NCBI GenBank assembly: GCA_963402885.1
Contig: OY727098.1
Span: 15,300,717 to 15,364,716 of the forward strand
DNA length: 64,000 bases
Direction: 5' to 3'
Source of the DNA: Antedon bifida
Lineage: Eukaryota; Echinodermata; Crinoidea; Comatulida; Antedonidae
In this document: positions 24,365-59,666 of the stretch, piece by piece
Position numbering within the stretch: the first letter of the stretch is position 1
Layout: each line of letters starts with the position of its first letter
Program-made: the position numbers and the translations under genes
The notes under the pieces: model-generated
Told to the model about the DNA's origin: nothing
What the model saw: the letters and a program-made list of their open reading frames with translations, nothing else
Databases searched by the model: none

Positions 24365-24490
24365 TTTTTTCATACAACTAAAAAATACGGAACTTTCGCC
24401 AATGAGCTATCTCGACGCGATTATGAGATCATGTTCCGAATATGAGCACTGTTTCTATAATTTACAGTATGATTTATATATATATATATA

Positions 24491-34600: not shown

Positions 34601-36078
34601 GCCTCCAGCAACTGGGTTGAGTTGACTTGATTTGAAATGTAGAAACTTTCAATTCAGATTACAGTTTTAGTTAAGAGAAGCATCACATGAATATTTTGAT
34701 TTAATAGACGCACTTTGACCCGGTCGAATATACTGTAAAAATAAGGACACTAAAACATTATTCTTAACTGAATGGTTACATAAAAACCGCATCAAATAAT
34801 CGAGATAATGCCATTCGCTATCAAATCATAGAATAAATTCGTGTGACATAGTGTAGGAATTCTGTACCAAACAGTCCACAACTGCGACCCATCAATCGAT
34901 CTCCAGTGTAAAATGTTGATCGTGCGTCCAGGGATAAAATCGCGCCCAACACAGACTCATGGGGATGTGGTGTCAACTCGCAATAAGTCTCTTTTGAAAG
35001 GAAGAAAAGAAAAATTAACCATTGATGCAATTAAGATAAACACAACAACTTGCAAAAAACTTATCACCCCAGGTGAGGTTTGATACTTCGAAATAATTGT
35101 TGTTTACGTTGAAATATATTACTGTAGTAGCGCAGTATGTTCCGGTACTTTATTCCGAAATGGCTGACTCATCTGAATTGTGAAAGTTTCCAGATCAATT
35201 CTTACAAAAAGTAATGGTAGTAGTAGTCCGTGCTATCATTTTACAGTATTTGTAAAATGGTAGCAAAGTAACTACAGTTTTTCTTCAAATAAAACCTCTA
35301 AATCTTGTTAATTAGTAAACTTTCAACGGCTTTAGGCCTGTGCTACTAGTGAACTCACTAATCACTAATTGTATGACATTTCAGATTATTGAAAAATTGG
35401 ACTTAAGTTTCAACATTAACACTTAATACGGTAACATTTTTATTTATGTTTAAAATATAAATTCGTAAGAAAGTTTCAATGGATATTTACTGGACTCGAT
35501 TCCGCCACAATGACAAATGTTTTTAGTTTAGATGACAGTGAAAGTTATATTTACTTATTCGTATACCAAAGTGTAGTAGTAAAAATAATGTTCCCGACTG
35601 TGACTTCGGAATGTCAGGAACTCTGAGAAATGACAGACGGGGACGAGTCAACCCTAGGAGAGCTCGGAAAAATAATCTAATCGTCTCGCATTTCCAACTC
35701 TGTGCGGGGCAAGTGCCAATAACAACAGCATTCTGCTTATTAATTCAACACTGTAGGGGGCGGGCTCCTCTATCATTTTGTTGATATCCACAAGTTTCGC
35801 AAGAGTTTGGAACTACAGGTCAATTTAACATTTCTGAAACTCAATTCCAGTTATCTTCCAACTGCACTCAGCTCAACTGGATATAATGCGGACAGTTTGA
35901 ACTGATTTATTACGTAATAAGTGATGGACAGATAGTTGCTCTATTTTTTACTAGACCCTCAGAGGTAATGGTTAACCAGCAATTTGTTTACATGGAAGAG
36001 TTTTAAAAGGAAAATTTATCTTTGTCATAATCTTTCAAGATATTTTTTGTTGGTTCTCAATCTTATCTTTCGATTACA
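31674..36078. other. Intergenic DNA upstream of the matrix gene
   Basis: No gene is supported. There is an (AAT)n microsatellite at about 33220-33246 and a short hairpin (CTATCATTTTAC/GTAAAATGGTAG) at 35233-35263. The block at 34860-34990 is GC-richer than its surroundings but lacks splice-consistent coding sequence. The promoter of the matrix gene should lie in the last few hundred bases; I see no decisive core element. Confidence 0.4.
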
Positions 36079-39000
36079 ATGTGGATGTTTGGTGAATTGT
36101 TGACATTGATTGTTTTTCTTCAACTGGGTTATGCTCAACTTGAACCATTAACTTTAAATGTACCGAAGAAAACATTCGTAGTTGAAGCTAATGATGAATC
36201 GTACGTAGAATATCTTATCGATGTAATAGATGGACTTTTATTATCAAACTCTAACGACGAGGGGAAGTATGTCTTGCAATCGTTTTCAGAGTATGGTATG
36301 TACATGTGATAGTTATTTACTTCTGTATAATTTAAATTGTAGTGAAATTGTAATTACTACGGTAGGTTAAATTTTCTAACGTACACTTTTAAATGTTTAA
36401 CCATCAGACAATCCCAACCCACTCACTTTAAATAGTAATATTGCAAACTATACTGTGGGCTGACATGACAAGTTCATATCTCAATAATTGTAGTTACAAA
36501 GATAATATTGTTCTGTTTTAAAAGTTTATTTAATGTGTGTAGTTCCCAAATCTTCCTTTTGAAAGTAGGCCTAAGTCATAGTGCATTCAGATAAGCAAAT
36601 AAAAAATAATTGCTCCTGACTCATAAATATTAAATTCACTTAAATAAAATTTTTTTCCTTTTCTTATTTGGACAAGACTTGTACATACAGGTAATATAAA
36701 AACATATATTTTTTTAGAAATGTCCATATGACTATATGTGAGTAGAGTATGAGTAGAACATAAAACAGTCTCGCTGCGATAACTAATTTTTCGGCACAGT
36801 TTGGTGTGTAATCGTGCCGTAAAGGTGAACATGAAATAGGCCTATGGCATGCTATCAGTAGCAATAGATCATTAATAGTCCTGGGGAGAAGAATCTCACC
36901 TTAGCGGTGTCGTTTGATAAGAAATTTACCTGTAAAAGTTAATTTTACGTCGGAGAACCTTGAACCGATGTTGTCAAATTAATGGAAACTGAAAGGTAGT
37001 TCGGTTGTCACAGGCCTGTGTTCGACACGTGCGTGCTACACGTAGGCTTACGACGCAAGATTCAGAGTTACCGCTCATGTAATGTGGACATACTCGTTAA
37101 CAACTATTGGTATAGGCTTACTCTGCTGAGGAAAGACCCATTGTTTATACAATTAAAAATGTTTTTGTATTCCATAAATATGACAAAAGCTAATGAAAAC
37201 AATCTGAAATGTTTTGATAGCAAGTAATGAACACGTTGAGATAAAAATTAATCATTTAAATTTCGCGATTTTCTGGGTGAGATCTCTGTTGGGGTTTTTC
37301 TCTCCAAAGACCGTAATTGAATTGTTAACAGATATGACCTTTTTCAGCAAACACTAATCCAGGACAGATTTGTCTAATAATGATAATTTTAATATCTATA
37401 TTGGGGACGTATTATTGATATGCAAGCTAATTTGACTAAGAATGCATTTATAAAGAAATCACAGAGGAAATTAAACATTTGAAGCTGAATTGAATTTCTG
37501 AAAGAAAACAATAATAAACTATTTAAATTTTACGTGCTAAAAGTAATTTTACCAAATTACATTTTATTGAGTAAACGTTATTATATGTTTGATGGGTGGG
37601 ATATTTTCAGTTGACTAATCTCCACAAGTGGTATCAAGAGTGATGTGGTTCGTGCTTTGTGTAATATAATTATATTGACAATTACAATGCATGTACACAA
37701 ATTAAGAAGACCGAATGAAATTGCATAATTATATACCGTTTGGATAGGTTGATTCTTAATATCTAAACTTATGCTCAGAACACAAAACCGAACTGTAATC
37801 AAGTCACCATACAGAAGAAGGTTGTGCCAAATGCTGCAGCAAATCGAATTATTTAGTGAATGTAGTAAGGTGGTACTACTGTATGATGATAACAACTTAA
37901 TATGAATGTTGAAAATCATTTTCCAGCAAAGTTATTAGTACTTTATTACTAAGTTTATTAATTTCAATTTTATTTCACAAAACATTATTGCAAAGTTATA
38001 TTAACAAAACACAACTATATTATTACCATGAAGTTTATATTAGAATTTAACTCTTTAAGTCATTAAATATATTGATTGTGAATCTAACATGAATAACTAT
38101 TAATTGTTAGGCTACTGGGTGGTATGATCTGTCTTGGTCACTACGAACATTAGTACTTCCATCAGGCTTCCCGCTGACGTTGTTGTTATTCTTCATATTC
38201 TCAGTGATCTAGCCTGTGGTAATTATTTTCTTTGAACATGTTTTTGAGAGATGGTATGGAAGTACCCAGGCCCCCGTTTGTATTATTTAAGTTTATTTCT
38301 TATTTCAACATTGAATTCAGCTCCAATTTGTTCTAAATCGATTTGTAAGTTCAGGCTACACGTGTTTAAAATTATCTTTGTATTAATTTAACATTTTTTA
38401 TCAACTTTAACTGTAATTAAACTTTAGTTAGTGCTTTAAAAAGGCTGTAACAACGAACACACACGCGTACCTATGGGAATAAAGCATTTGTAACATGGTT
38501 TTGTCAAGACCAATTAAATTCATTCCCAATTAGGTAAAATTACTTTGTTTGTGGTAATGAATACCAGAAGGAGATTACAACATCAGCACCTGATAAGTCA
38601 GGGTATCGTTAACCGATAGCTTCCAATTTGAATTGGTGAAATTAACCTATAGTAACTTTTGATATATCCCGTAATTACTAAATTAAAATCCTTAATAATT
38701 TCGTTGGGTACATGTGTACTTTATTACTTACTGCAGGTGCTCTAATCTATTGTTGAGTTTTAATCGTTGATTTTCTAAATCTGTTCATCCGTTTTTGTAA
38801 TTTTGTTGAAACTTTTTGTTAGTTTCTCCAATTTTGTCGTCTATAATACTCAATCCATTTTTAATATGTCATGAACTCGTCTTGCTTTTGTACACTGATA
38901 TATTATACTGAAAGTTTACAAGGTATTCTAAAGGTATGTCAACTTTGACCTTTAAATATTATTTCTAACATAGGAGATACCTTAGGGTAAGGAAAAAGGA

Positions 39001-42000
39001 TCACATTCTTTGAAAATAATCGTGTAACTTAGAAACACAAGATCGAAGGTGAATACAAATAATTATAGCTAATATAGGCATATCCTGAATATTTAAAAAT
39101 TAATTATAAAAGCTAAACTTATGCAAAGAATAAAAATTGTTTTGTTGTTTTAAGAATTAACTTAATTTATAAAGTGCATCAGTGCTTGGAAGTTCAGGTG
39201 ATCAATTAACTTTAGGTTCGATTAGGAACGGGGTTCTAAAGGAACATCACGTCTATTGCTCCTAGCATACATTCCAAACCAATTAAATTATGGAAAAATG
39301 TATGGCTACAAAATATATTTAATGGGTAATTGTTCCAATATCTGTCTAATGTTATGGAATATTGCCAAAAAACATTTAATTTCAGCCCACTAAGTTTATT
39401 AATGAATCATTCTTATGATATCAGATTTGTTTCAACTATTCTTGGACATGTTTGTTTTCACAACCTTAAGTCCATAAAAGACAATTTGGTATTAAAACAG
39501 TAATTTCAAAATCATATTCTAAGGATAATATTACTTAAAAACAAGTTGTAATATGCTAAGGAATATTCTTATATTTCAAATTAAATTACGGAAATGCTTT
39601 TATTCGCTACGATTTTGGTCAGTTTAGCTCCAGGTGTTATATTACGTTACATTACCATTAGTATGAAACACATTCTTTACATATTATGTACAAGTTAACA
39701 TGGAAACATTTGATTATGTATTGCAGAATAAAATCAAATCAGCAAATTAAATTGCAAACAAATTAACATGAGATAATTGAAGTGACAAATACGGCGTCGC
39801 AAACTGTGGAGATATTCTGCATTTCAGATTGGTTAGCATTTAATTTTGCTGGCATGACAGGCAGCAACAAGTTTAAAGTTGATGAAAACAGGATATTGAC
39901 CAAAAGGTACAGCAAATTATAATAACTAAATAAGGAAAATTGATATAATAAAAAATAATTAAAATGTAAATAATTAATCCTATATCGAATTATTTAATAC
40001 TTTTTTCTCTTTCACATAAACTTGTAGCAAGCTTTATAGCCCTATATCAATTTAGCTATAGGCCTATTTTTAGACCTAATTATCTAGCCATTTGATACAA
40101 TTTGATAATAAAACAATCAAGGTTTTAGGGCGTTAGTATTACATTCGTAAGAATGGTTTGAACCCACAGTTGGAAAGATTACACGTGTTTGTAATAGAAT
40201 GCACGATAATTATTTTTAATTTTGTATATAATTCGATGGATGAATAATGAAATAGATAAAATACAAAAACAAAAATCCGCAACTAATAGGCTGGCCTATG
40301 TTCAGTCATTGGCATAATCTTTGAATTGGTAACATTCCTGGAATTTTCCTGAGATTTGACGTAATTAATATGTTTATGTATGTATGAATCTTGCGAAGTT
40401 GTTGTTTGTTCATGTTAAGAAGAAAAATAACTGCATATTATAACTCCATGGGAACACTTAGGAACTATTTTTACTGTATTAACATAATTCAAATCTGTAA
40501 CAGAATCCTATTAATTGCAATTATCTTACAAATGGTATTCGAAATGGTAAAGTAATAAAATGCTGTTTTTGTATGTTGATTATGTTAATTATTGTGTCAT
40601 AAAATGTGCGTATAAACGTTTGAATGTAGTTTGAGTGTATCACTTTTCTTGTTGTTAGCATTAACCGGACGTGCTGTGATTCTATCGAAATACCCAGTAC
40701 CCCATTTACCTGGATCATTACCAAGTTGCGTTGGTGAAAACCAACAGCGGTAAAAGATGATTGACACTTTTGCAAAAGTTTTGCGTACAACTTTATGGCG
40801 CCGAAAGCGAACTTTACCTTTGGTACCGTAGCTTGAAGGAGACAGTAGTTTACTCAAAAGATTAATCTGCGCATGCGTATAAACTCAATATACAGAGTTT
40901 CGTTTCACAACACAACATCGCTAATATTTGTGAAGGAATTTGACGTTAGCTAGCATATTTTTGCGTCAAATCATTAATAGTTCAGTGACATTTAATAAAT
41001 TACATTTATAATGTTGATAACATCACATTTATTTGTTGTCTCTTACTTCATGTTTTTATAGGAAATGTGAAATAAATAAACATAATTCTCTAACCAAACT
41101 GAATTTCAATAGCATGCCGCAACTTATTAAACATGAATTTGGTTATCGGGAAATCATGTTTCTATGTTATATGATTCAAGATAACATATCTTAGATTAGT
41201 TGATGCTGTTCGGAACAATGTTTGATACCATTCTGTTGTGATTCCTTGCAACAGGTTCCACGTGAATTAAACAATTCAATTAATTAGAAAAACAAGACAC
41301 AAAGACATGATTTAACATTATTTTAACACCGTGACCTACTTCAGATGTATTATAGATAACATTATTGGATTGGTGTAGGCCTTCTGGAGAACATGGCACA
41401 GCGCGAAGTAACATCTGAACACTGAGAAAACATAGGCTTGGCATGTGTCTCAAATAAAACATTCAAAGATCTATTCATAGTGCATAGCTGGGTTCATTTC
41501 CGAATATCGTATTCAACAGTTTTGTAGTTTTTTGTAATGGGATTAATAGATATAATTAGATATTTCCCCGACGGCAGTTCAGTTGTCCTTTGATAATATT
41601 TCTCAGAGACAGGGTTAAAATTCACCAACATACCACTTTATCAAAATGTTATACATAAACAAAACTATAACAATATAGAAAATATATGTTTAAACAACTG
41701 CTCATTTGTCTCTATGTTGGTTATTTTTTTTACTATAATTACCATCATTTTAAATGCATTTTTTATAGCAAACTGTATTAAACCTTTACCAAAAGTTATT
41801 TTAATATACGAACATCGTGTAAATCACAAATTAACAGCTATTTTGATGAACTTCGAGTTTTACAACAAGCGTTCACCTTGGCAGAGAATGCGGCTCATTC
41901 CAAATCTTTATATTATTAGGTACAAAGCGTATTGTACTTTGAATGACATTATTTCTTTCATATTTCTAGATGTTCCAATTCCGATTGAATCAAACAGCTT

Positions 42001-44275
42001 AATTGAAATTCAAGATTCGGTAAGATCTCTAGATGTTTACGACAATCAGAATTGCTCAACACGTGGCATCAACTCTCTGCCGCTGTACAGTGCTCTCAAC
42101 AGTTCTGCTTCAAATTCACTTGTGGTCGTTGTTACCGGAACAGGTGTCAAATCAGATGGAACTTTTATTCCTGAATTATTTGATCTTATTCAGAAGAAAC
42201 AGCTCAGGGTAAGTTTAAAAATCTTAACTAATCAATCGATTCAAAGACAATAATACCCAGTCGGTATAAAGTTAACAGAATCAGTTTGCAAGTTGAACCG
42301 TTTTAATTAATATTCCAAAAAAGTTTTACATTTTACTAACTAAGCAAGTATTTCTTTCCTTTTGAACATATCTTACAAAGTTTTAATTTGTAGGTTATCT
42401 TTGTTGTATCCGATGAATGTTCTGATGGATCCCGCAATGGACGTCAGTTAATAGACGAGGTCACAGAAGTTAGTTCAGGGGTCATATTTTCATTGGAAAC
42501 TCAAAACATTAGCCAGGTTGGAAGCTTCATTTTGTATTTTGTACAACTATATTTGTTTTGTCAATAATGTAAAATACAGGAATGTCTAAATACTAAATGC
42601 TGTTCAGTAAATTTGAGAATAGGTGTCCGCGTGGGACTCAAACCCATTACCCCCAGATCATCTCTGGAAGTTTTACGGATTATTCTTAATAGTAACTTTT
42701 CAACTAATTTAAGATGTAAAATATCTGTATTTTTCATGTTAATATCGGGATAATATTTTCAATAACAGATTATTCGATTCATTCAAACTTTTGATTACGG
42801 GGATGACGTCAGTCTTCTATCTCCTACGCTATCGACACCAGGAGTTAGTGCCTACCAATTATACGTTGATGAATCAGTTGAACAACTAATAGTGATTTTA
42901 TCAGGCCTCGAACCAATCATATCAATCTCAGACGTCGACGGTAAGTTTATAATATACATTACAGTATAATTTTATACAAAATCACATTATTTTATTCCAT
43001 ATTATTATTTAGACTTTCAATCAATTTTCAATTTTAATGTTTGACGTTAGGATTGGAAATAAAAGAGGAATGATGATACTTTATTGAGTAGTTCAATTCA
43101 GTCTGAAGCTGTACGTTTACGTTTGGCTGTTCACTTTTTACGTTTTTTACTTTTGATGTTTTTTACTTTTGATGTTTTTTACTTTTTGATGTTTTTTACT
43201 TTTTATTAGCGTTTGCTTATTGTTGTATCTCACTTGAAATCAAACAGCTTTGTTTTTCCCTGTAATTTGGCATTTGATGCATGTAAATATTTCTATGGGA
43301 TGTATCAAATCATCAGTCATCTGTTATCAATATATTTATTAATATGATTCGTACTATTGAATAATCTATGTTCAATAGGTAAGAAGCTTGAAGCGGAACA
43401 GGACTTTGAGTACATCGTTGCTTCCAACAAACTACAGATTATTGTTCTTGAGAACGTTTTTCCAACTGAATATACACTCAGTGTATTTAGCTCTACTGAT
43501 AACTTGGTTCAAGTCATTGGATTTGCACCTAGCCCTATTGATATTAGGTATAGGTTTTACTATGAGAAGACCATCAATATGACACAGGCATCGGAAAGGC
43601 CGTACACAACAGAAGGTAACTTTCCTGCAATAAATTCTACAAACAATTAATAATTGTAACAGTCAATATTTAGTTTATTTTTATACTAATTTTCTAATTA
43701 AAGTGCACATAAATTCCTATTACGAAGGCGACTAAAAGTTTTATTCATATTCATATATTCATTAAATAACTTTTAATGATTTCATTTAACTGACATATAT
43801 TATTGTGTTTGAAACTAACTAACTAAACATTAAAAATGCACGTGAGTGATGCACTATTTAGTATATCAAACATCTCTTTCATGCTTGCATAATATTTATT
43901 GTAAGATGTGTACATCATTTTATATAAAAAGATGAACCAATGTATGTCTAAATTTGTATTTGTTTAAATAATCTCTCTCTTTATTTGTAGGTTCACAAAA
44001 TGTCATTCTTATGCAAGTTGAAAACACTGAAACTAATGTATGGCACTCCCATGATATTATTCAGAAGGTAGAATTTATTTCTTTGGTTGGTGAAGTTTTG
44101 CGAAATATTTACATGGGCTCATCAAATTTTGTAAAAGAAGAAAACGCAAACCACGCCCATTATGTTATGCAAATACGGCCACCAGATGATCATTTCTACA
44201 TTACGGTACGAGGAGTTAATAAGAATCAACCATTTCAGAGGTCATCTAAAGTGGCTTTCTCTCAATGGAGACCAG
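36079..44275 (+). CDS. Matrix gene exons 1-6: signal peptide and hemicentin-type head
   Basis: Residues 1-424. Exon 1 has a signal peptide (MWMFGELLTLIVFLQLGYAQ) and the first strand of a VWA-like fold. Exons 2-4 continue it: LVVVVTGTGVKSDG, LIQKKQLRVIFVVSDEC, VTEVSSGVIFSLETQNISQI follow hemicentin's FTDA-containing, IQQKQSQVVFVLTGDC and TSSGQVFHLDKKQVN segments. The metal site is gone: the usual D-x-T/S-x-S position reads VVEANDES, and TDA reads TGT. Exons 5-6 match the region after the hemicentin VWA, ending GVNKNQPFQRSSKVAFSQW like hemicentin's GYDKDGYLFQRVSSVSFSS. Introns are phase 1 or 0. Intron 1 is 5.7 kb, the longest. Confidence 0.85.
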
Positions 44276-47200
44276 GTAGGATTTTTATATATTATATCAT
44301 CATCACAAAAAAATACTGGTGTGAAGCACCAATTGGAGGCACAGGCCTACATGGAAGCTGGGTCTGATTAGGGGTACAGTCGGGAATACACCATCCAGGG
44401 CTTGATAGGGGCCAAACCTCTTCAAAATTGAAGTAGAATGAATGCCTACAATTACAGTAACTTAAATAATAAGAGGAACAATCCACTACTAGTACTAGAC
44501 AACAGTGTATATGAAATCACATTTCTCCTGAGTTGGTCTATAAGTATTTAGTAACTTGAATATTGCAACTGTCAATTTGATATATTATTGAAATGGTTTG
44601 TAAATTTTACTTATAATTACATATTTATTTGGCTCAAGTTCCGAGCAGACCATCGAGTTTTATCGTATTTGAAGCTGAGGACTGTGATTACGAGGCAATT
44701 TGGTACGAACCAGTACACACTTTTACCAAATCTTTGATTGCATATCAGTTTTCGTTTGGATTGGACACAGATACACCTATTGATTTTCTACTACCATCAA
44801 ATGTAACATCATATCGAGTTAACGAATTAGGTTGGTATTTTATTTATATCTAAGTAATTTATAAAATGTATTTCATGTTAGTGATTTATGTTGAAACTAA
44901 TATGTTGAATTAATGTCAAGACTGTTTTAATCACGGTGCAATCATTGCAATTATATTATTTTGGTAAAGTATAAGTTTAATTAATTTTGTGAATAAATAT
45001 TTAATTTCCACCAATGCTTCAGCGAAAGGTTTGACATACGTGTTTACCGTCGCCGCTGTCAACGAAGCTGGCGTAGGAGAATCACTTTCTGTCACCGTCA
45101 TAACGCCTTCTGACAGTAAGTATATATTAATACGGTGTATTAAAACACTATGTAATAATACAATACATAACTGATAAAATAATGTGCCATACAATATCTA
45201 TTGTCCAAGTGAACTATTTTTTAACGAAATCATGTTACAAACATTTGTTACTACTGAATATCGAAAAGAATAAAAATGTTGTTGTCATAATCAAAATTGA
45301 ATATACTGATCAGTAATAATAGAGCGATTTCGATTTGCGACGAACGTACCTAGGATCTGTGCATGTTATGTCGTTGGTCGTCCTCAGGACCAACTCCACC
45401 GAAACCAATGTCCCCACATACCCACAGTAAATTAACATCACGTAATTAGTTCCTAAGCCCTAGATCATGGAAAATCAATCTTTATGTGACAAAAAATGTG
45501 ATGTGCCCATATATGGACACGATGACGTTATATCACTGCCATATCTGAACGTATCACTACCATATTTGGGCACATCACACTTTTTTTATCAAACTATTTT
45601 GATAGTGTAGACAGAGCTTTACACTTTTATTAATATCATAAATTGTTCTTATTTTCAGGACCAATTGCACCACCAACAAACATCCATGCCATTCAGGCCA
45701 CCGATTCGCTTATAGAGATCTCGTGGCAACCACCCGCTGCAACCATGCGTGGCGGAAAGATTATTCGATATACTACAATACATTTCCTTATGACCGAGCC
45801 ATGGAAAAGATACAGGTTTAAGTCCCGCAAAACCAGAGTTGTTTTCAAGAACCTGCTTCCCAATTCAGAATATGGTTTTCAAATATCTGCTCACACAATA
45901 ATGGGCCAAGGTCCATTCAGCCGCACATCAGTTTTTAGAACAACAGCGGGTAGGTAGAAAAGAAATTTAGTGGATGAGCCATCATTTCCACATAGGAAGG
46001 CATTGGTGTACTACATCTTTAATAATTTAAGATAAGAGTACACTTGGAAATTTAAGGGTTGCAGGAATACCTTTGGCATGTATGAATTGCGCATAATTTT
46101 CTCTTTCAATATTTGTTTAGGTCTCTCAAGTGGTCTCAATCCTGTCCAAAACACGACCTATAATCAGACAAACTCGGATATAGATTCTGTTTCTCAAGAC
46201 TCTACAGAAGTATCAGTGGATCCACAGACACGACTGAATGTTACTAAATGGAATATAATTACAAACACAGAAGCAGCACCAACAGATATTCCGGACGAGA
46301 TATCTACAACAGATACTATGGTGGAATCAACAACTAGTGACAAGAATATTGTCTCAGGCAGCCAATCAGAAAGTAAACTGGTTTTTGAAGTGGAAGTTTA
46401 TACTGAAACAAACTCACCAACGCCATCTGGAGAGATCCTGAATGAACTGGATGAAGATATTACTGATGACGTCACTAAAAATCAACAACCAGACGCTGTA
46501 GAACAACAAGACTCATTATTTAATAACAGTTTGGCAAGAATTATTGCATATCCAGTAAACGATCAAGCGTAAGTCAGAACGTTTTGTTTAGCCATTGTTT
46601 AATGATGTTATGACTTTAACATACCTGAAATTATATGGAATGAGGATGTTTTACATTGTTATGCATCTAATAATTCCAAAGGTCAACACTGTTTTGAATT
46701 CTTGTGATCTGTTTTAATGTAATTTTTTTCCTACTTGTTCTGATCATGTTCTTGATTTTGTTTTATCAAACAGTATTTTGTGCAACTTTGTTAAAACGGG
46801 GCTTAATTATTTAATTTTGATCATAGTTCTTTAAGTATCGATTTCCTTATTTTAAACAATCAGAATCATAGAAATAGTTGCAAGAAAAGTAAAGTATTAC
46901 CAGGCTTGTACTACTTAAAAAAATCTTCAAATCTCGTCCCAAAACATGTATATTGCTTGATGTATAATATTATTATCTCTCCACAGTTTAACTATTGTAA
47001 TATTGTGTGGGGCAGATCAAATAAAAAAATACTAATAAACTACAAATGCTACAAAACAGAGCAGCCGAAATTATTACAAAAACAAGTACACAAGCCCTGC
47101 AAAACTTAAACTCAATTCTCAACTATATAATAATGAAGCCAAAATGTTGTATAAAATATTCCATAATCAAGCACCACCATATCTAAACTATTTACACCCA

Positions 47201-50200: not shown

Positions 50201-53200
50201 TTGCAGCCCCATTACAACACCGAATAATTGATTATAATGGAAAGGCAACATTGAGATGTTTCGTCATAGGCTTTCCACTTCCTTCATATGAATGGTACCA
50301 CGAAGGGAAAAGGATACCAGTAGCAAGAGGTCGCATTAAGGATAGAACGTTTGGATGGGGATCAAGGATTATTATTAAGAATATTACAGAGTCAGATAAA
50401 GGGCGTTATACATGCGTTGCCAAGAATACAGCTGCAGAGAGAAGTCTAGAGGGCACTGTGTCTGTCAGAGGTGAAACATTTGTGTATTTAGAGTTAAACT
50501 GTATCTTTATTTCTGTGTACCTAGTGGGATACTATGTTAAATACCAAGTTTTCTATTTTGCTAAATTAACAATTCTTTTATTGTTTCTTTTAAAATATAT
50601 TTTTAGGAGTTGCAAAAATTGATGATATTCAGGTTATTATTAAGTCATCAACAGAGGCACTTGTGGTTTGGACAAAACCAAATTACATTGCATCTGGCGC
50701 AACATACGTTGTCCGGTTTTACAATGAAGTTAATCGCGGATTAAAATATCATTTCTCCACAACCAGAACAGAGACTTACTACAGGCAACTATTGCCTAAT
50801 TCGGCATACACGTTCCGAGTGAAGATGCAACGAGACAATAGATCGAGCGTGTTTAGCAAACCAATCATGGTGAAAACACCGCCGTTGGGTAAGTTTGGTA
50901 CCGTAAAGTAAATCATGAAATATCGTTTAACAAATGTAAACAATATTTGTTACTATTTATTTACTCTTTGGTGATCTTACAGAACCCACTACAATATCAC
51001 CCAAGGATTCTACGTCCTCGCCCAGTATTGATTCCACAACTTTATCTGTCAATGACAAAATAGTAGTTGGTGTTACCAATGCAGATACCGGAGAGGGGAT
51101 TCAATTTACTACTGGAAGTCTGGAAGAAGTTCAATTCAGTACTGCCACCAAAGATGAAAAAAGTCAGTCAATGCTAGTAACTACTGCTCCCGAAGCCGCA
51201 TTCGTTAATGAAGATCTAGAACCATTGACAACTGCAGTTCCTGAACCAAAGGCAACTGCAGCTCCTGAACCAATGGTAACTGCAGCTCCAGAATCAATGG
51301 TAACTGATGATCCGGAACCAATAGCAGCTGTATTTCCTGAACCAATGGCAACTGAAACTCATGGACAAGTGGTAACGGATGATCATGAACCAATGGCAAC
51401 AGCAGCCCCTGAACGAATGGCAACTGAAGTTCCTGACGCAGTGGTAACTGATGATAACGAACCAATGGTAACTGCAGCTCCTGAACCAATATCAACTTCA
51501 GCTCCTAAACCAATATCAACCGCAGCTCCAGAACCAGAACCGGAACTAATGGTAACGGATGACAAATCCATTGCAAACGCATCTCCAGAACCAGTTACTG
51601 ACGATACTGATTACACTACCACTAATATCCCTAAAGGTACAGAAGAACCAGAAAAGGCAAATGCAATGAAGTCAACATCATCATCAATCACGAAAAACAG
51701 TCCACTGAATACTAATCCTCCAGCAGACACAGCATCTACGGATCCGGTTGCAAGTAAATTTGACGAAAATGAGGAATCTCAAACATCTGGGTACTAATTA
51801 TTTTGCTGATTTATTTAAAAGAAATAAGACTGAATTATAATACTAATGTTTAGGTATAATGCGAATAGAAAATATTCTTTATTTTACTACAAATTTATAA
51901 AAGTGGTGTTCTAACTTGGGCAAAGTGTTAAATTATATAATATATATGTTTTATAATTACTATAGATTCCAATCATACCATCTATCAGTTCCACTTTATC
52001 TAAGTATAATCGAAAACAAAAACATTTCTCATAGCATATTACTATCAATATGTATACTATTTATTATAGACCGATTGCTAACGACGGCACGTATCTGCGA
52101 TTAATAAGACCTTTGCCAGACGTCATTGCATTTGTCGATGATCGCTTGAATCTACGATGCACCGTAGATGCTAACCCATCAGCTACATTCCTGTGGCACA
52201 AAGATGGAAATCCGTTGAACATAGGAGGTGACAAGATTAAGGAGAGAAAGTATTTAAAAGGGTCAATACTCACGTTTAAGGAAATTAAAATGTCGGATGC
52301 AGGCAGATATACCTGCATTGCTCTCAACCATGGCAATGTTGTAGAAACATCTGGAAATATTACTGTTGTTCCAAGTAAGTGCATTGTATTATGTCATTAT
52401 AATGTAACCTAACGTCTGGTGTTTTAGATCATTACATTGTGTTAGGAAGAGACGAGCTTCAAAGTTATTCGAGGAAAGGACACAAATTAGAATTCTTATA
52501 AGTACCGTATATTGATAACTTGTCTGATTATGGGGGTTGTCTGTACATTTTGCTGGTGTAATATATTAGCACAGGTAATAATTGTTGCAAAAAAAAAATT
52601 GATATTCACGTAATAACCAATTCAAAACATTTCCATATTATAATACGTAGACATATTTTTTTGACATTTTTAGAGGGTGGAATAACACAGAAGCCAGTCG
52701 CTGAAAACGGGCACACAGTAATGAAGCGATCAGTCAGGCCTGGAAGTAATAAGGATGTCGATCCATCATCATCGTACGCATCGTCATACACTACTCATTT
52801 ACCGTCATTAGTGGAGGAGGTGTTCATTACACCTGATGCAGAAACTCCAAAGGTTACAAGAGTATCGCAACATGATCCACAGATGCAGAAGCCTGATGAG
52901 AGTGTTGTGGTACGAGTTACTGGAATTGAACCAGAAGAGGTAGTCCAAGACGCGAAAACTGACAGACTTGGCAATCTTAATGCTCGACCATCTCAAACAT
53001 GGGATTCTAGTCGTAGGTGAGTCAACTTGCTTTATTACCTCCGTCAGAGTAGCGAGAGGTTATGTGGTCGATTGTGTGTGTTTGTTTCTTTCTATATTTG
53101 TTAGTTAGCAGGATTACTCAAAAAGGTATTGCTTGATTTTCATAAGATTTTAAAGGATGGTTTCATAGCTGTATAGGAACACATCATTACATTTTCACAT

Positions 53201-56200
53201 GCCTAGGCAGAGGTTTGCGCTCTCTGAGTGCCCTTATAGTTAGTACAAGTACAGATTATCTGTACATTTCGATGGTAGAATAACTATTTTAATTATTATA
53301 GAATACAAATAATAACGTATATACACTTTAACGACTTTGTTTTTGTATACAGCGGCGAGCCGTATGTAGAAATTAAAAAATACATGGAGGAACAGAGTGT
53401 TGAGGTTGGCGACAGGGTAGTGTTCCTTTGTCGAATCATTGGCGAACCTAAACCAAGGTTTTTGTGGTATAAAGATGGGGCACCATTAGTCTTTGATGAT
53501 AGTCGAATGAAAGAGAGAGTTTTGGACACCGGGTCACGTTTTACCATCAAACGAGCGCTTTTGCGTGATGCAGGAATCTACACTTGTTATGGTCTTAATG
53601 ATTATCAAACGGTGTCTATGCGAGCCACTCTAGAAGTCTTCAATCCATGTGAGTTAATAAACTGTTGATAGTTTGTTCTTTTTGTTACTTGTAAAGGTGT
53701 ATATACGTTCTGTATCAGAGATTGCCCTTCTACTGTTCTTTTGTTTATAAGCAATTGATTTTCGTTTTTAGACGTAAATCCATACCCGCAGCCATCTACT
53801 ACACCCACAAGAACAAAACCGAATACTAAACCAAGAACAAAGCCACCGGCAAAAACAACACCTCTAATCACCTACAAACCAACCGATCCATTTACAACTC
53901 AAGTAACAAACTCGTAAGTTAATGACGTAATCAATCAAATGATAACATCTGTAATAAAATCAAGGGCCATGCATAATAATGGTGATAATGTGGACACACA
54001 TAAACCCCTGTCTAATGATGTTAATAATCGTCATTTTTTGTATTATTAGTGAATAGACACTGACATGTGTTTTCTTTTTAGAAAGTAATGGTTTAATATG
54101 CTATAATACCTTCAAACAAGATAATAATTGCTCAAAAATATTATATCTAATGTCTAAATTGTTTATAAAAATTTAAATTACAGTTACAATAAGAAACATG
54201 ATTGTATTGGAGAAATCTCAAAACTTTGCATGTCAAACGAGTTAGTTGGAAAGAAGGTTGATATAGATGATCGTATCTCGCTCCGGTGTCAAATATTTGG
54301 AGATCCTCAACCTGAATATCGATGGTATAAAAACGGATTAAGAATTTACCCAACAAAACTTGGATTAATAAGAGAGAAGGCATTTCATTGGGGTTCTCGC
54401 TTAGCTTTTAGAGGCGTGAGAGAGGCTGATACTGGTGAATATCGATGTCAGGCGATCAATGCAGCTGGTATTAAAGAAACAAAGGCTTGGCTGCTTGTCG
54501 GACCATGTGAGTATTTTTTTCTCTGTTTATGTTTGTTATTGAAAGGGTACAACATTTACTTTCTATCATGTTTGGATCCTTATTGGATCCGGTATAGGCC
54601 AACTCAGACAGCATCGTACATCGAGGCCCGACCAATTGCCTTGACTCGTTGGTGCTGTCTGAGTTGATCCCGACGAGACGGGTCGAGTCGTCTTGAGATA
54701 GCGTCGGGCGTAGTTTTTAGACTTGTCGGGCCTCGTCGTACGACGCTGTCTCTGAGTTGGCTTTAAGTTGTTTTGTTATTCAGACCGATTGTAAAGACTA
54801 AATAATATTTGTTTCTATTTTAGATGCAACAATTCCTCCACAAATGGAAACAGAAGCACCAACCACAACTGTTGAAGCATACAGACCTACGACGACCCAA
54901 ACAAAACCCAAGCCTCCAAAGAAGACACCAAGGCCAACAGCCCCGCGGCCACCAAAAAAGACAACACAAGGCGTTGACCCTACAGATGTCTTCTTGCCAA
55001 CAAGTACATCCAGACCAAGCGTCCAGTAAGCACAATTGTTTGACGTTCAAATCATTGGTGATTTTTTTTCACAATATATATATATATATATATAGCGTCG
55101 ACGTTTACAAACTATGTCCATTATACTTTCTCTGCTCTTTTCATTGATAGTGATTTGTATAGAAAATTAGATTAAAATTATCATTTTTTAGTACCGTAAA
55201 ATATATACTGCTTCTGAAGATTTTGATCACCTACTTAAGTAATTCTATGTTTCCTATTTAGAAAATGCATTACTGGTGGCAACGGTGAATTATGTTATGC
55301 TAGCATGCCAAATCAAGTCGGAGTAACTGGTGGATCCGTCGTCTTCCAATGCAGAATGACCGGTACACCAGAACCTCAGTTTATCTGGTTCAAGAATGGA
55401 GTTCTTATTTTCATGGACGAGGAAGCTGGAGAAGATGATATGCAACGCATTCGTATTAAACAGATGTCGTGGGGGTCTCGTCTTGTTATCAAAGATATTG
55501 TACACGAAGATGCCGGTACATACCTCTGCGTTGGCGCAGTTGTAGACATATCAGAAATTGTACAAGCTGAATTAAGTGTGGTAGAAGGTTCTCAATCCAG
55601 TAAGTCTTCCACATAGCTTCTTCACTCTTAAATTGACAACTGATATACTGTTGGCCTACATAATAAACTGTTTTTTCTATTCTTAGAACCACCACCAAAG
55701 AAAAAGCCTAACAAGAATAAGCCACCGAAAACTCCAAATACACCAAAGCCAAAGCCTCAACGGCCTAGAACACCAACGGGAGAAGAGAGAGTGACTTCTC
55801 CTCCCGTTTACAGACCTAGACCTGAAACTGGAAACAATGGCGGGCAACCGGAAGGAAGGTATATTAATTAATTTCAACGTACAGATCTCTTTGTTTTCTC
55901 CGTTTACGTTAGTCTAACTATTTACATCCACCAAATAATAGCATCATAACTTTTTTTCTTTTTTCACAGCCCGGATGGTGGAAGATGTGTGGTATACACT
56001 GGCTCCGTGTGTCGTCGTTACCTAAAATCTCAGATGGTTTATGTTGACGGCGGTTCTGACCTATATTCAATTGATTACCAGCTTCAGGCTACTTTACAAA
56101 CACTTTCAGCAACTGACTTACAATGCATGAGCTACCTCGAGCCATTCCTCTGCTTCAAAGCCTTTCCCCTCTGCGACGATAGCGGTAAAAGTAAAAGCAT

Positions 56201-59200
56201 ATGTCAGGAGGATTGCTCTGTACTCACAAGAAGCTATTGTCGTGACCTAACTGATTTGAAAGCCGCATATCCTGGACAATATCTGTGGATGCCTTCATAC
56301 GATGACTGCAGTACTTTATCATCAGTGAACGTAGACAGCCAATGCATAACAGTGGGACTAACGAATTGTACGTATATATAACATAATTGTTCCTTCTATA
56401 ACTGAAAATTCTCAATGTATTAATGTTGTTTAACCCTAGTTTTATTGATGTAATGTGACTTAATTTTAATATTTTTATTGATTGTTTGTAGGGTTTAATT
56501 GATATACAATATGTCAATCAATTGTTCGTTAAATATTTATCTAGCACTATAAATACTCGACAAGGCAGTATTAATTCTACATAAGAAAATTCAGTAGTCA
56601 TTCTGTAGTTCTTATTTAAAAAAATTAACCAACCCATCATAACTAAATATGTTAAGATAAAGAACAAAAACGCTTAACATATTTTTATGTTATATAGTTT
56701 ATCTACATACATTTAGCCTACTTCTCGTTAATCAGGCATTATTCGGCCTAAACTGTAAACGAATAATGACAGCTTAATGGAGTAATTAATATGTTCAACC
56801 ACATAAATAAATCAACTTATAATCAATAACAATGTTCATTTTTTAGCCAACACCAATCGGTCTCCAACTGCGGGGTAAGCTTTCCATTTATTCTAATTTT
56901 GATTGAATAATCAGTTTTTATACACCTAAACTAAACTAGTCTAAATTCTTGTCATTTCATCGAACGATTTTGGGTCACATGGCGTGCAATAGTACGCACT
57001 ATTTAATGGAAGTTAAATAGTACTTTCGTGTACGAAAAAAAAATTTCGCGTACTGAATATGAATGTAGGAAATTGAATATTATTTGTTCATTTTATCAAC
57101 ATTCTTTGCAGTGCTTTTGTCATTAATCTGACATAAATAGCTATTTAACTGGAACTTAATTAAGTAATAGGACCCTTTACTAATATTAATAGGAAATGGT
57201 TTATATAAAAAAGAACCATGAACATATTATTTTATTTCAATAAATAAATGATTGCCTGTACTAGGCCTATAGTTCGGCAGATGAAACTGTAAGTTGTATA
57301 TGTGTTTATTTTATATTTTAGGTCTAAACCTGCCGGCAAATGCAGACCTTATAATTCTGACGGGATTTGCAGCGAATATGTTGGAAACAGGAACACGTTC
57401 ATCAAATCCGGATTAACGTTAGCTAAAATCGAAACTAATGTTATGTCTATTTTCACGGCAGTCCTTACCCTAGGCTCAGTGAGCAGACAGTGTTCCAACT
57501 ACCTCCTTCCATATATCTGTCTGAGGGCTCTTCCACCCTGCAACCGCAACGACAGGCCATTGGAGGTATGCCGCGAGGATTGTGAGGTCCTCTCGAATAG
57601 TATTTGCTACGAAGAATTCAGAGCTACCCTGGCTACGGATGAACTAGATAATAGTGTATTCAAGCTAAATGACTGTCTGTCTCTGCCGTCTCAATCTGGC
57701 AAATACAGCTGCACCACTCTTAGTATATCAAGCGAATTTAGAGGTAAGCGTCATCACTTCCTAATACTGTGAAACTTATGTACAATAGATTATATTTAAC
57801 TTAAGCAGGTGAAAACCAATGTTGTATATCGTCATCATCGTCTAATAGGTATTTACAACAAAAGTATTTTTCTATTTTTGTAGCAACCGAAACTGATGTT
57901 GTTTTTCCTACAAGGTAATGCACACTTTATTATTTTCGTACCCATAATAATGCAATATAAATTTATTTGTGTATTTCTGTAAAAAAAACACCCAACACTG
58001 CATGAATTTAGTCGCACATTTTCGTTAAAAATGTAAATTTTATCAATGTTATTTTGTTATTATGTTTTTTTACCATGTATATTGTATCAGTATGTCCCTT
58101 TGGCCAAATTATATGCATAATCAAATATCACTTTATTTTATTAAGGCCTGCCTTACTTCAATGATAAGAAAAGTATTCCTATAGGTTTCATATTATGTTT
58201 CTTTTGGTTTATATAATGTCAATAATTAGTTGAAATGTACAAAACATAGACAACGTGTCAATGATAATGCTCACTTATAAATTTGGACAATTTTGGATAG
58301 TCCACAGCCTACAAGAAATTGTGAGGCCTACAAAGGAACAGTGTGTTCTAAGTACCTGTCCGGACGCACAATCTACCTTAGCAGTGGACAAAAACAGTCG
58401 GAAATTGAAAATGAGATTCTTAAAATCAAGGAATTGCTAGACACTGAAATGGAATCAAATTGTGGTGGTTACCTCTTCAAGGAGATATGCCTTACAATGT
58501 TGCCAGTTTGCAATAGCCGGGCAAAGAAACGTGAGATTTGCCGAGAGGAATGCTTACAACTCCATAACGAATATTGTTATAATGATTATCAAACATTACA
58601 AGTATTGTTACGTGGCCGTGACGATGTCTTGACTGACTGTTCAACTTTGCCCTGGACTTCAGATATACGGGGCCCGACCTGTATTGAGCTCGGTGTTTCG
58701 TCATTACCTGAGGGTGAGTCTTCACCCCAGAATAAACATGTACTATATATTATTATATATATTAAATACAAAGGCTGTTTGTTAATTAAACATATCTGTA
58801 CTAATTCCAGCTTCCATATATTACTTACTTTTAATGTTACTTACTTTAATACTTTTATTTTATATGTTGACTGCATGTTCACTAATTTAGTAGAATTAAA
58901 AAGGCTACATAGTGCGCTTAACATTGATAGATGAAATGCATGTAATAGTATATATAGAATCCTTTTCCCTTTTAATTACGGTTTTTTAATTTAATTAGCT
59001 TATTATCATAATGTATCAGTTTTAATCTGTTTTATATTATGGTAATATTAGTTTTTATGTAGGCATGTATGTAAACGCTAATCAATTTTTAAGATTTTAT
59101 TATATTTAATATATATATAGGATTACATTTGATATAGAAGATTATCCTACTATTATTTCTATATACCTTATCTGATTACCGTGCCATTTTAATGCTAAAG

Positions 59201-59666
59201 TTAGTGCATATAAGTATTCATAATTATACTGCTATAAAGCGAAGATATACTACAGATTAGCACCTGCATCATCATTGTTTAATCCATTGTATCAGAGAAG
59301 AATGAATTTACAATTGTAATTTCACTCTTCCCTGATGACACTACCGATACGAAAGAAAATAAACAATAACGATGTATTGGTTTAACATTTTCAGTGGCTC
59401 CGCAAGTAGAAGTAGAGCTTGAAATGGATTCAAGTGCAAGACAAACGTCAACAGTTACTCTAAGATGTCGTGTGACTGGATCCCCACCTCCGACAATCGA
59501 ATGGTCAAAAGACGGCGAAATACTACAGAGTACTAATAATATTTCATTAGATAGGAATAAAGTTCGCATTCAAGTTACGAGTGAACGAGAAGAAGGGACA
59601 TACACATGTACAGCGAAAAATTCAGCCGGAATAGACAAACAGAATATGCTCATTAATTTAGTATAG
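36079..59666 (+). CDS. Hemicentin/ROR-like secreted matrix protein, 30 exons
   Basis: Exons: 36079-36295, 41970-42208, 42394-42516, 42769-42940, 43379-43615, 43991-44275, 44639-44830, 45023-45115, 45659-45949, 46121-46568, 47716-48038, 48545-48832, 49116-50067, 50169-50470, 50607-50888, 50983-51790, 52070-52374, 52674-53016, 53353-53648, 53772-53913, 54184-54506, 54824-55025, 55262-55599, 55687-55858, 55970-56367, 56847-56874, 57322-57743, 57884-57914, 58301-58713, 59395-59666. They total 8937 nt, 2978 residues, with GT-AG introns and matching phases throughout. Order: signal peptide, VWA-like, hemicentin-type region, FN3-FN3, linker, Ig-FN3, linker, Ig-FN3, linker, four Ig with linkers, three Frizzled-type domains, Ig, stop. 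There is no internal transmembrane segment, so it is probably secreted into the matrix. The head resembles hemicentin; the tail resembles the Ig-Frizzled ectodomain of ROR/MuSK kinases, without the kinase. I know no named protein with this full order. Missed or alternative exons are possible. Confidence 0.85.
36296..41969 (+). other. Intron 1 of the matrix gene
   Basis: The 5.7-kb intron (phase 1) has no exon I can support; the VWA-like fold is continuous without one. Short open frames on both strands (for example 40597-40857) show no motif. First introns of this length often hold enhancers, but no element is identifiable by eye. Confidence 0.5.
43136..43206. repeat. Short tandem repeat in intron 4
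   Basis: A 16-18-bp unit near TTTTTACTTTTGATG is repeated about four times. Confidence 0.8.
44639..45949 (+). CDS. Matrix gene exons 7-9: two FN3 domains
   Basis: Residues 425-616. FN3-1 is split over exons 7 and 8 (YEAIWYEP, then TYVFTVAAVNEAGVGESL). FN3-2 is a single exon (PTNIHAIQATDSLIEISWQPP ... LLPNSEYGFQISAHTIMGQG), with the typical core tryptophan and the tyrosine in the F strand. All boundaries are phase 1, the classic shuffling phase. The MITE copy at 45480-45619 sits in the intron before exon 9. Confidence 0.9.
45480..45619. mobile_element. MITE family M1 copy in intron 8
   Basis: It runs from TTTATGTGACAAAAAATGTG through the ATATCACTGCCATAT/TATCACTACCATAT core to ATTTTGATAGTGTAGACAGAGCTTT. 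The right terminal repeat is intact and the left end is diverged. Confidence 0.75.
46121..50888 (+). CDS. Matrix gene exons 10-15: two linker-Ig-FN3 cassettes
   Basis: Residues 617-1481. Exons 10-12 encode an S/T/D/E-rich linker, an Ig domain (VVFICRIKGSP, SWYLDD, GKYTCRGENGAG) and an FN3. Exons 13-15 repeat the same order with a 317-residue acidic linker, an Ig (TLRCFVIGFP, EWYHEG, GRYTCVAKN) and an FN3 (LVVWTKP, LLPNSAYTFRV). Phases are identical in both triplets (1-2, 2-1, 1-1), so one is probably a duplicate of the other. The Ig motif WGSRIIIKN resembles the YGSRLRIRN of ROR Ig domains. Linkers would be extended and possibly O-glycosylated (inference). Confidence 0.88.
46890..47385 (+). 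mobile_element. LINE reverse transcriptase fragment in intron 10
   Basis: Translation in shifting frames gives YYLKKSSNLVPKHVYCLMYN, ISPQFNYCNIVWGRSNKK, and further on FHNQAPPYLNY and the L-P motif NTLPR. This is the thumb and C-terminal part of a non-LTR reverse transcriptase. Several frame breaks and stops show it is an old relic. It is in the same orientation as the host gene. Confidence 0.7.
47386..47600 (-). mobile_element. LINE 3' tail with poly(A), opposite strand
   Basis: Read on the minus strand, a 3' UTR-like sequence with CAGTCTTTGACTGTCGTTTT ends in CCGATTAAAT and a long A run (the T run at about 47389-47408). This is how a retroposed LINE copy ends. It abuts the reverse transcriptase fragment, so two elements have landed head to head in this intron. 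Confidence 0.55.
50983..51790 (+). CDS. Matrix gene exon 16: Pro/Glu/Thr repeat linker
   Basis: Residues 1482-1750, one exon, phase 1 to 2. The middle (about 51219-51563) is a degenerate 8-residue repeat close to EPMVTAAP, alternating with VTDDPEP variants, from a 24-bp DNA unit. It should be unfolded and negatively charged, with many Thr/Ser positions open to O-glycosylation. Repeat number is likely variable between individuals. Database similarity of such a tract would be low-complexity and not informative. Confidence 0.85.
52070..55858 (+). CDS. Matrix gene exons 17-24: four Ig domains with linkers
   Basis: Residues 1751-2457. Ig exons 17, 19, 21 and 23 each carry the C-W-C pattern (for example LNLRCTVDANP-FLWHKDG-GRYTCIALN; VVFLCRIIGEP-FLWYKDG-GIYTCYGLN). 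Linker exons 18, 20, 22 and 24 are acidic/serine-rich first, then Lys/Pro/Thr-rich (RPTTTQTKPKPPKKTPRP; PPPKKKPNKNKPPKTP), which might bind acidic polysaccharide. The Ig domains of exons 21 and 23 have an extra cysteine pair N-terminal to the fold (DCIGEISKLC; KCITGGNGELC) and the WGSRL motif shared with ROR. Repeats in introns include a fold-back at 54598-54761. Confidence 0.88.
53030..53250. repeat. Dispersed repeat in intron 18
   Basis: The block ACCTCCGTCAGAGTAGCGAGAGGTTATGT ... TTAGCAGGATTACTCAAAAA ... GCAGAGGTTTGCGCTCTCTG looks like a repeat type I remember from many invertebrate genomes (shown here in pieces). There is no second copy in the window; the ends are uncertain. Confidence 0.4.
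54598..54761. mobile_element. MITE/fold-back in intron 21
   Basis: The ends GCCAACTCAGACAGC and its inverse GCTGTCTCTGAGTTGGC, plus inner TCGTAC/GTACGA and GAGGCCCGAC/GTCGGGCCTC matches, give inverted arms of about 35 bp. The interior repeats CAACTCAGACAGC-like and CGACGAGAC strings. It is far more GC-rich than the intron around it. Confidence 0.75.
55071..55095. repeat. (TA)n microsatellite in intron 22
   Basis: About eleven TA units between exons 22 and 23. Confidence 0.9.
55970..58713 (+). CDS. Matrix gene exons 25-29: three Frizzled-type cysteine-rich domains
   Basis: Residues 2458-2888. Exons 25, 27 and 29 each encode one domain with exactly ten cysteines in Frizzled CRD order: C-x-x-Y-x-G-x-V-C, ...C...C-x-x-x-x-P-x-C, C-x-x-x-C...C..., C...C. 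They follow ROR/MuSK more than Frizzled receptors (VCRRYL, ICREECLQL, the ICQEDC/VCREDCEVL motif and a single-exon layout). Exons 26 (28 nt) and 28 (31 nt) are micro-exons coding 9-10-residue spacers. The family fold binds Wnt or fatty-acid ligands; binding here is inferred only. Confidence 0.92.
59395..59666 (+). CDS. Matrix gene exon 30: terminal Ig domain and stop
   Basis: Residues 2889-2978. The exon opens with VAPQVEVEL after CATTTTCAG and gives an I-set Ig (TVTLRCRVTGSPPP, IEWSKDG, GTYTCTAKNSAG), ending NMLINLV-stop at 59666. No transmembrane or GPI signal follows. An AATAAA at 60177-60182, about 510 nt on, is a plausible polyadenylation signal. Confidence 0.9.

Follow-up and report, generated by a model that had tools for sequence, protein, structure and literature searches.

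A stretch of 64,000 nucleotides from the genome of the crinoid Antedon bifida (assembly GCA_963402885.1, contig OY727098.1, positions 15,300,717 to 15,364,716 of the forward strand; hereafter the window, 66.7% A+T) carries on its plus strand, between positions 36079 and 59666, what is very probably a single gene of 30 exons with one predicted transcript. Its predicted product of 2978 residues begins with a hemicentin-type VWA head, continues through FN3 and Ig domains joined by long cysteine-free linkers, and holds near its C terminus three Frizzled-type (Fz) domains of the kind found in ROR and MuSK receptors. With still slightly greater confidence, we read this protein as a secreted mosaic protein of the matrix. 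The chances are about even for the fuller reading, in which one gene encodes a matrix-lodged protein whose array of low-affinity, ROR-type cysteine-rich domains (CRDs) would act on Wnt/Frizzled complexes.

Gene model

The gene was modelled with an exon-chaining gene finder written for this analysis. In a self-trained run, whose codon statistics were learned from coding parts of the region and from a neighbouring ankyrin open reading frame (ORF), the start being fixed at 36079, intron penalties of -14 or -16 returned exactly 30 exons and 2978 residues, and penalties of -12, -10 and -8 gave 31, 38 and 46 exons; a run at a small penalty, which over-split the region into 88-108 micro-exons, was dropped and the penalty retuned. 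Because self-training includes the gene under study, an independent run drew its codon statistics only from the ankyrin ORF on the minus strand and from a presumably KLF-type ORF elsewhere in the window, with generic splice models, a non-coding background taken from both strands of 36401-41000 (inside intron 1), and start and end left free within 36000-60200. At all three penalties this run started at 36079 and ended at 59666, and it recovered 30 of the 30 model exons at -10 (plus 6 extra ones), 29 at -12 and 28 at -14. The score at -12 was 488 on the real strand, against 48 on the reverse strand and 6.5-11.4 on dinucleotide shuffles (n = 6). The 30 exons and 2978 residues that a first-pass annotation had spliced by hand are thus reproduced, runs trained on two other genes recover 28 to 30 of the exons, and the exon structure as first described is confirmed. 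The exons, with their phases, are as follows.

36079-36295, plus strand: exon 1, N terminus resembling a signal peptide, then the beginning of VWA (metal-site position = EANDES)
41970-42208, plus strand: exon 2, middle of VWA, after the 5674-base intron 1
42394-42516, plus strand: exon 3, end of VWA; missed in one of three independent runs
42769-42940, plus strand: exon 4, start of the hemicentin galactose-binding-like domain (GBD_Hemicentin match, residues 207-298)
43379-43615, plus strand: exon 5, remainder of GBD_Hemicentin, class 1-1
43991-44275, plus strand: exon 6, final part of the hemicentin-motif region, residues 330-424, class 1-1
44639-44830, plus strand: exon 7, FN3 domain 1, first part, class 1-1
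45023-45115, plus strand: exon 8, remainder of FN3 domain 1, class 1-1; the exon of which we are least sure, with a possible extra or alternative exon at 45388-45441
45659-45949, plus strand: exon 9, FN3 domain 2, class 1-1
46121-46568, plus strand: exon 10, acidic, cysteine-free linker rich in Ser/Thr, phase 1 to 2
47716-48038, plus strand: exon 11, Ig domain 1, phase 2 to 1
48545-48832, plus strand: exon 12, FN3 domain 3, class 1-1
49116-50067, plus strand: exon 13, long, acidic and cysteine-free Thr/Asp/Glu linker, phase 1 to 2
50169-50470, plus strand: exon 14, Ig domain 2, phase 2 to 1
50607-50888, plus strand: exon 15, FN3 domain 4, class 1-1
50983-51790, plus strand: exon 16, acidic Thr/Pro/Ala linker carrying, at 51219-51536, a tandem repeat of 24 bases or 8 codons; phase 1 to 2; the donor, GTACTA, is weak
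52070-52374, plus strand: exon 17, Ig domain 3, phase 2 to 1
52674-53016, plus strand: exon 18, cysteine-free linker, phase 1 to 2
53353-53648, plus strand: exon 19, Ig domain 4, phase 2 to 1
53772-53913, plus strand: exon 20, basic, cysteine-free Thr/Pro/Lys linker, phase 1 to 2
54184-54506, plus strand: exon 21, Ig domain 5, phase 2 to 1
54824-55025, plus strand: exon 22, cysteine-free Thr/Pro/Lys linker, phase 1 to 2
55262-55599, plus strand: exon 23, Ig domain 6, phase 2 to 1
55687-55858, plus strand: exon 24, basic Pro/Lys linker directly 5' of the Fz block, phase 1 to 2
55970-56367, plus strand: exon 25, Fz domain 1 (ten cysteines in ROR-type spacing), phase 2 to 1
56847-56874, plus strand: exon 26, 9-residue linker, phase 1 to 2
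57322-57743, plus strand: exon 27, Fz domain 2 (ten cysteines in ROR-type spacing), phase 2 to 1
57884-57914, plus strand: exon 28, 10-residue linker, phase 1 to 2
58301-58713, plus strand: exon 29, Fz domain 3 (ten cysteines in ROR-type spacing), phase 2 to 1; the acceptor is weak
59395-59666, plus strand: exon 30, Ig domain 7 and stop codon

The extra exon at 45388-45441 was chosen in all three independent runs, displacing 45023-45115 in two of them, and the region of exon 8 is therefore the least certain of the model. The two longest linker exons each have one open frame, the other two frames holding 19 and 49 stops in the 952-base exon and 16 and 30 in the 808-base exon. A pseudogene was rejected on the grounds that every one of the 30 exons is open and the repeat of exon 16 stays in frame.

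One result goes against the model as drawn. A free-start run over 33000-64000, with the gene's own parameters, favoured a variant (746.6 versus 738.1) in which exon 1 gives way to 34913-35072 plus 36182-36295, exon 30 is cut at 59607, and 60832-60865, 60968-61290 and 61752-61786 are added; its start at 34913 lay outside the reach of the independent runs, which were limited to 36000-60200. We rejected this variant, though it scores higher, because the exons it adds at the 3' end run antisense to the ankyrin ORF (60734-63286), and because a start at 36079 gives the protein a signal-like N terminus.

Intron phases and the unity of the gene

From intron 4 onward, every intron is in phase 1 save nine phase 2 introns that lie inside couples of a linker and a domain. 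Exons 5-9, 12 and 15 are of class 1-1; all nine linker exons (10, 13, 16, 18, 20, 22, 24, 26 and 28) run from phase 1 to phase 2, and all nine domain exons that come after them (11, 14, 17, 19, 21, 23, 25, 27 and 29) run from phase 2 back to phase 1, so that each couple makes up a class 1-1 unit. The gene is a class 1-1 exon-shuffled mosaic. When the best splice sites were picked ignoring phase, in search ranges bounded by the model exons, the phases matched at 24 of the 29 junctions, where 9.7 would be expected at one in three (P = 6e-8); the mismatches fell at junctions 4, 6, 16, 25 and 28.

A competing reading, which we hold to be quite improbable, would see here two merged neighbours, of which the first (exons 1-10) would encode a VWA/FN3 protein with the hemicentin head, and the second, beginning with exon 11, an independent Ig/FN3/Fz protein. 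Introns other than intron 1 measure 87-1147 bases, and intron 10, the longest of these, is the only one besides intron 1 that exceeds 700 bases, which speaks for this reading. In a comparison of 28 two-gene splits with the single gene (splits in introns 1-28, the extra start and stop uncharged), 22 splits scored 2.0-25.0 below the single gene, and those after exon 10 and exon 9 fell just 2.8 and 3.3 below it. Two points speak against a single gene more generally: the six remaining splits, placed elsewhere, outscore it slightly, by +0.4 to +4.5, and its unity is deduced from genomic sequence. A second gene could also start at 46078 (MYELRIIFSFNICLGLSSG), a hydrophobic start that reads through a pyrimidine tract. 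By eye, none of the other second-gene starts listed resembles a signal peptide, and they lie mostly inside model exons or are very short. Against the two-gene reading, exon 10, the first linker, sits on the head side of intron 10, and yet it is a cysteine-free, 1-to-2 linker like the eight downstream ones and is followed by the matching 2-to-1 Ig exon 11; the phase-blind sites join exons 9-10 and 10-11 in phase. One gene is favoured chiefly because of this phase pattern, which is a stronger argument than the two-gene score.

Two introns deserve a note of their own. Intron 1 (36296-41969), with 5674 bases about five times as long as the next longest intron of the gene, may contain regulatory DNA. 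Within intron 10, an open frame at 46807-47109 looks by eye like the decayed remnant of a reverse transcriptase, and had no Pfam match at E 0.1.

A head of hemicentin type

Searched alone against Pfam, the head reaches the cut-off of 27 bits for both VWA_4 (29.1 bits) and GBD_Hemicentin (29.2 bits), and no further family appears up to E = 10; the hemicentin-like VWA head of the first-pass annotation is thereby borne out. The search with the whole protein weighs against it, putting the same two matches just under that cut-off, at 25.5 and 23.5 bits. The alignment to VWA_4 enters its profile of 169 positions only at position 33, leaving unmatched the N-terminal part, where the metal site is expected.

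The residues of the metal ion-dependent adhesion site (MIDAS) of the VWA domain, DxSxS or DxTxS, are a feature of hemicentin. Neither motif occurs in residues 1-210, and a search for MIDAS-like motifs on the plus strand from 33000 to 46000, intron 1 included, gave no match; in the place of the MIDAS, the predicted protein has EANDES and human HMCN1 DVTGSM. The metal site thus looks lost, and metal-dependent binding by the head is probably absent.

The head is 24% identical over 331 columns to the N terminus of human HMCN1. The HMCN1 sequence used agrees by eye with the published letters of the hem motifs except for one residue in motif I. Those letters, given for the four vertebrate hem motifs, are printed in PMC3707829, and counterparts of all four, with only partial identity, stand in the same order in the predicted protein. 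From the end of the VWA match (residue 184) to the first FN3 exon (residue 425) there are 240 residues, versus the 222-226 of the hem-motif region that lies between the VWA and the first Ig domain of hemicentins. Since the hem motifs are found in order and the MIDAS motif is missing, we call the head, by its sequence, hemicentin-type by descent and probably without metal-dependent binding; in HMCN1 the VWA domain is considered to mediate the binding of partners, as stated in excerpts of PMC11841684.

Three Fz domains of ROR/MuSK type

The three Fz domains, each with 10 cysteines, score 38.0 to 45.1 bits against the Pfam Fz profile (cut-off 32.1). The gaps between their successive cysteines are 7,37,8,6,9,3,7,22,11 in domain 1, 8,40,8,6,9,3,7,22,11 in domain 2 and 7,38,8,6,9,3,7,20,13 in domain 3, to be compared with 7,40,8,6,12,3,7,21,13 in ROR2, 7,39,8,6,12,3,7,27,14 in Drosophila Nrk and 7,36,8,6,10,3,6,16,12 in FZD8. 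According to PMC6938638, the C7-C8 gap is of 6 residues in Frizzleds and of 7 in receptor tyrosine kinases; it is 7 in all three domains studied here and 6 in FZD8. The C8-C9 gap, of 20-22 residues, likewise stands beside 21 in ROR2, versus 27 in Nrk and 16 in FZD8.

Profile searches place the domains in the same company. Among solved structures, searches with single domains found, at E values up to 0.001, only human ROR2 (all three domains) and Drosophila Ror2 (two of three), and a profile built from the three domains found ROR2 at 1.4e-25, Drosophila Ror2/Nrk at 4.2e-13 and three MuSK chains at 1.2e-6 to 8.7e-6, with no Frizzled and nothing beyond ROR2, Nrk and MuSK up to E = 1. A Foldseek search with the model of Fz2 ranked ROR2 first, MuSK next and then Frizzleds; the fold models served solely to rank relatives, and not to assess a lipid groove.

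Some observations do not fit so well. The C5-C6 gap is 9 in all three domains, versus 12 in ROR2 and Nrk, and so comes closer to FZD8 (10); the models are modest, with a mean predicted local distance difference test score (pLDDT) of 56.5 for Fz2 and 68.5 for Fz3; and the Foldseek search with Fz3 gave no PDB match at E 0.001, MuSK being best at 0.054 and Nrk third. On balance, the assignment of the three domains to the ROR/MuSK type is supported by sequence, cysteine spacing and fold search, and so far as the profile matches, the C7-C8 gap of 7 and the ranking for Fz2 go, it agrees with the first-pass annotation. The domains share 26 to 32% identity with one another, and their duplications are therefore not recent. 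Viral contigs scanned with the Fz alignment yielded 40 pattern matches and no relatives.

Ig and FN3 domains, linkers and secretion

In the whole protein, Pfam finds seven I-set, four fn3 and three Fz stretches; after the signal, the VWA and the hem-motif region, the chain runs through two FN3, two successive Ig-FN3 pairs, four Ig, the three Fz and a final Ig. There is no kringle, kinase, G2F, EGF or fibulin module among the 20 families reported up to E = 1. The initial domain summary was right as to the head, the Ig domains and the three Fz domains, and left out the four FN3 domains and the nine linker exons. Among the best 60 of 855 matches of an Ig profile search, titin, Robo and Dscam came on top, which says nothing of a ROR origin.

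The linkers make up 35% of the protein and hold none of its 51 cysteines. Exons 10, 13 and 16 are net negative, and exons 20, 22 and 24, placed between Ig4 and Fz1 and rich in Pro, Thr and Lys, are net positive; the repeat of exon 16 runs to about 13 copies of 24 bases, or 8 codons, with the frame kept. Judging from composition, the nine cysteine-free linkers are probably disordered, and it is our guess that the basic ones bind acidic glycans. The protein has 16 N-glycosylation sequons.

The N terminus is signal-like by eye and by hydropathy, and on hydropathy only, with no membrane-span program, no 19-residue window elsewhere is more hydrophobic than the signal, the maximum being 1.48, in Ig6. 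This accords with the proposal that the protein is secreted and has no membrane span, and the Pfam search, with no kinase match, upholds the further statement that it has no kinase. Downstream of the gene, none of the 18 plus-strand ORFs of at least 40 residues holds a kringle or kinase, and their one match, of PAS type (E 0.011, 16.2 bits), is below the cut-off of 27. Secretion into the matrix, as part of the mosaic reading given at the outset, is accordingly predicted from the sequence.

Comparison with known proteins

Like the hemicentins (HMCN1/2 and him-4 of C. elegans), the protein has a predicted signal peptide, a VWA_4 domain, a galactose-binding-like domain and a hem-motif region, and would form a large secreted chain with I-set Ig domains. 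It differs from them in having seven Ig domains in all, instead of the roughly 40-50 in tandem that come straight after the hemicentin head, which is followed here by FN3; it has no TSP1, G2F, EGF or fibulin module, its MIDAS motif is not kept, and it carries three Fz domains and long linkers. Echinoderm hemicentins, as described in PMC10381214, are built of VWA, Ig, TSP1, G2F, EGF and fibulin modules.

ROR2 resembles the protein in having an Ig domain N-terminal to a 10-cysteine Fz domain (here Ig6 in exon 23, a linker, and Fz1 in exon 25), an arrangement not found in Nrk, whose ectodomain has a CRD and a kringle only. The ROR receptors (ROR1/2 and Nrk) share with it the C7-C8 gap and a similar C8-C9 gap, ROR2 being the best solved-structure match of all three Fz domains; they are set apart by their kringle, membrane span and kinase, all missing here, by their C5-C6 gap of 12 instead of 9, and by the three Fz domains, seven Ig domains and hemicentin head of the crinoid protein. 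MuSK, the second-best solved relative by profile, has several Ig domains followed by Fz and, again like the protein, no kringle; unlike MuSK, the protein has neither membrane span nor kinase, and adds the head, the FN3 domains, the linkers and the repeated Fz.

Fz domains are also present outside Frizzled receptors in sFRP, collagen XVIII and CPZ, which are secreted, as the crinoid protein would be. sFRP has an NTR domain; Pfam finds no NTR, collagen or peptidase domain in the crinoid protein, and its Fz domains are of ROR and not of Frizzled type. By the features tested, the protein is neither a hemicentin nor a ROR nor a MuSK.

A possible role at Wnt/Frizzled complexes

The first-pass annotation suggested a protein able to hold several Wnt-like ligands, a claim that needs correcting. 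As described in excerpts of PMC11219042, the CRD of ROR2 has no lipid groove, an inserted helix occupying its place, the CRD of MuSK is also without a palmitoleate groove, and WNT5A is bound by ROR2 more weakly than by the CRDs of Frizzleds. We assign the groove-closing helix, in a reading of our own, to the C8-C9 stretch, which is of ROR length in the domains studied here. Given that these domains are of ROR/MuSK type, and that the CRD of ROR2 is groove-less and weak for WNT5A, the holding of Wnt in the conventional manner is weakened. The same excerpts report that the Fz domain is the part through which ROR2 acts in WNT5A signalling, that ROR2 without its intracellular part still supports the signal, and that the authors favour a model where ROR2 joins the Frizzled-Wnt complex at a second, low-affinity site.

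We see an even chance that the protein has a role related to Wnt/Frizzled; the ligand and mode of action put forward here are inferred and, if the role exists, a low-affinity mode based on avidity is somewhat the likelier one. Class 1-1 modules would have been combined by exon shuffling and by duplication of couples of linker and domain, giving a protein of about 2978 residues that would be secreted and retained in the pericellular matrix through its head, its Ig/FN3 chain and its basic Pro/Lys linkers. There it would display three low-affinity, ROR-type CRDs side by side, and the avidity of these three weak sites could act on Wnt/Frizzled complexes, so that the protein would behave as a kinase-free, ROR-like, matrix-bound co-factor or decoy, and not as a clasp for the lipid of Wnt.

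The best surviving alternative, unlikely in our view, is that of a divergent, lineage-specific hemicentin in which Fz domains have replaced the C-terminal G2F/EGF/fibulin part, and which serves as an adhesive linker only, with no role in Wnt. Its hemicentin-type head and several Ig domains agree with this, as does the fact that Fz domains occur in structural matrices, frizzled-domain proteins being listed in the proteome of the red-coral skeleton (PMC7853314). Against it stand the head that is followed by FN3 and not by Ig, and the 10 cysteines and near-ROR spacing kept in three Fz domains, which argue for a kept binding surface. As for a classical trap, with the Wnt lipid bound in Fz grooves as in sFRP or Frizzled, it is the least probable reading of all: membership of the Fz family speaks for it, and the fatty acid buried in the CRD of Drosophila Nrk (PMC11219042, same excerpts) leaves room for lipid binding of another kind, but sequence, cysteine spacing and fold search group the domains with ROR/MuSK, whose human CRDs (ROR2 and MuSK) are groove-less.

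Neighbouring features of the window

The ankyrin ORF used for training lies on the minus strand at 60734-63286, convergent with the gene and about 1.1 kb past its end, and encodes 850 residues with ankyrin repeats near the N terminus (Ank_2, E 8e-24). On the plus strand, an open frame at 21063-22163 has three C2H2 zinc fingers at its C terminus, and we take it to be a KLF-type transcription factor. Two overlapping open frames at 24601-26528, also on the plus strand, are preceded by a tRNA-Thr-like gene at 24292-24365; the second of them matches reverse transcriptase (24.2 bits, below the cut-off) and GIY-YIG (28.2 bits), and the pair presumably belongs to a Penelope-type retroelement. Finally, positions 9490-10097 hold a 33-base tandem array of about 18 copies with a 98% match, within which open frames of more than 70 codons occur on both strands.

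Novelty and meaning

No protein with the order VWA, FN3, Ig and Fz was found in the accessible text of the top-ranked open-licence literature, nor in the excerpts of PMC12549020, PMC8382897, PMC11788884 and PMC11841684, and the remark of the first-pass annotation that no such family is described is not refuted by this literature; an unnamed public prediction with the same domain order may well exist. The architecture looks unusual, and class 1-1 shuffled mosaic matrix proteins are already a known kind; if it is merely a lineage-specific mosaic protein of the matrix, the gene adds one more product of class 1-1 exon shuffling.

A more far-reaching idea, which we consider doubtful, is that the protein belongs to a conserved but undescribed family of animal matrix proteins, ROR-like and kinase-free, whose hemicentin head would lodge a multivalent array of ROR-type CRDs in the matrix and so set where noncanonical Wnt/Frizzled complexes form. 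If this were true, matrix proteins would set the site of such complexes, a role so far known from the membrane-bound ROR receptors. A natural, secreted protein with three CRDs and no kinase would test the action of ROR-type CRDs alone and in array, and such a protein would link the hemicentin family of the matrix with the control of Wnt.

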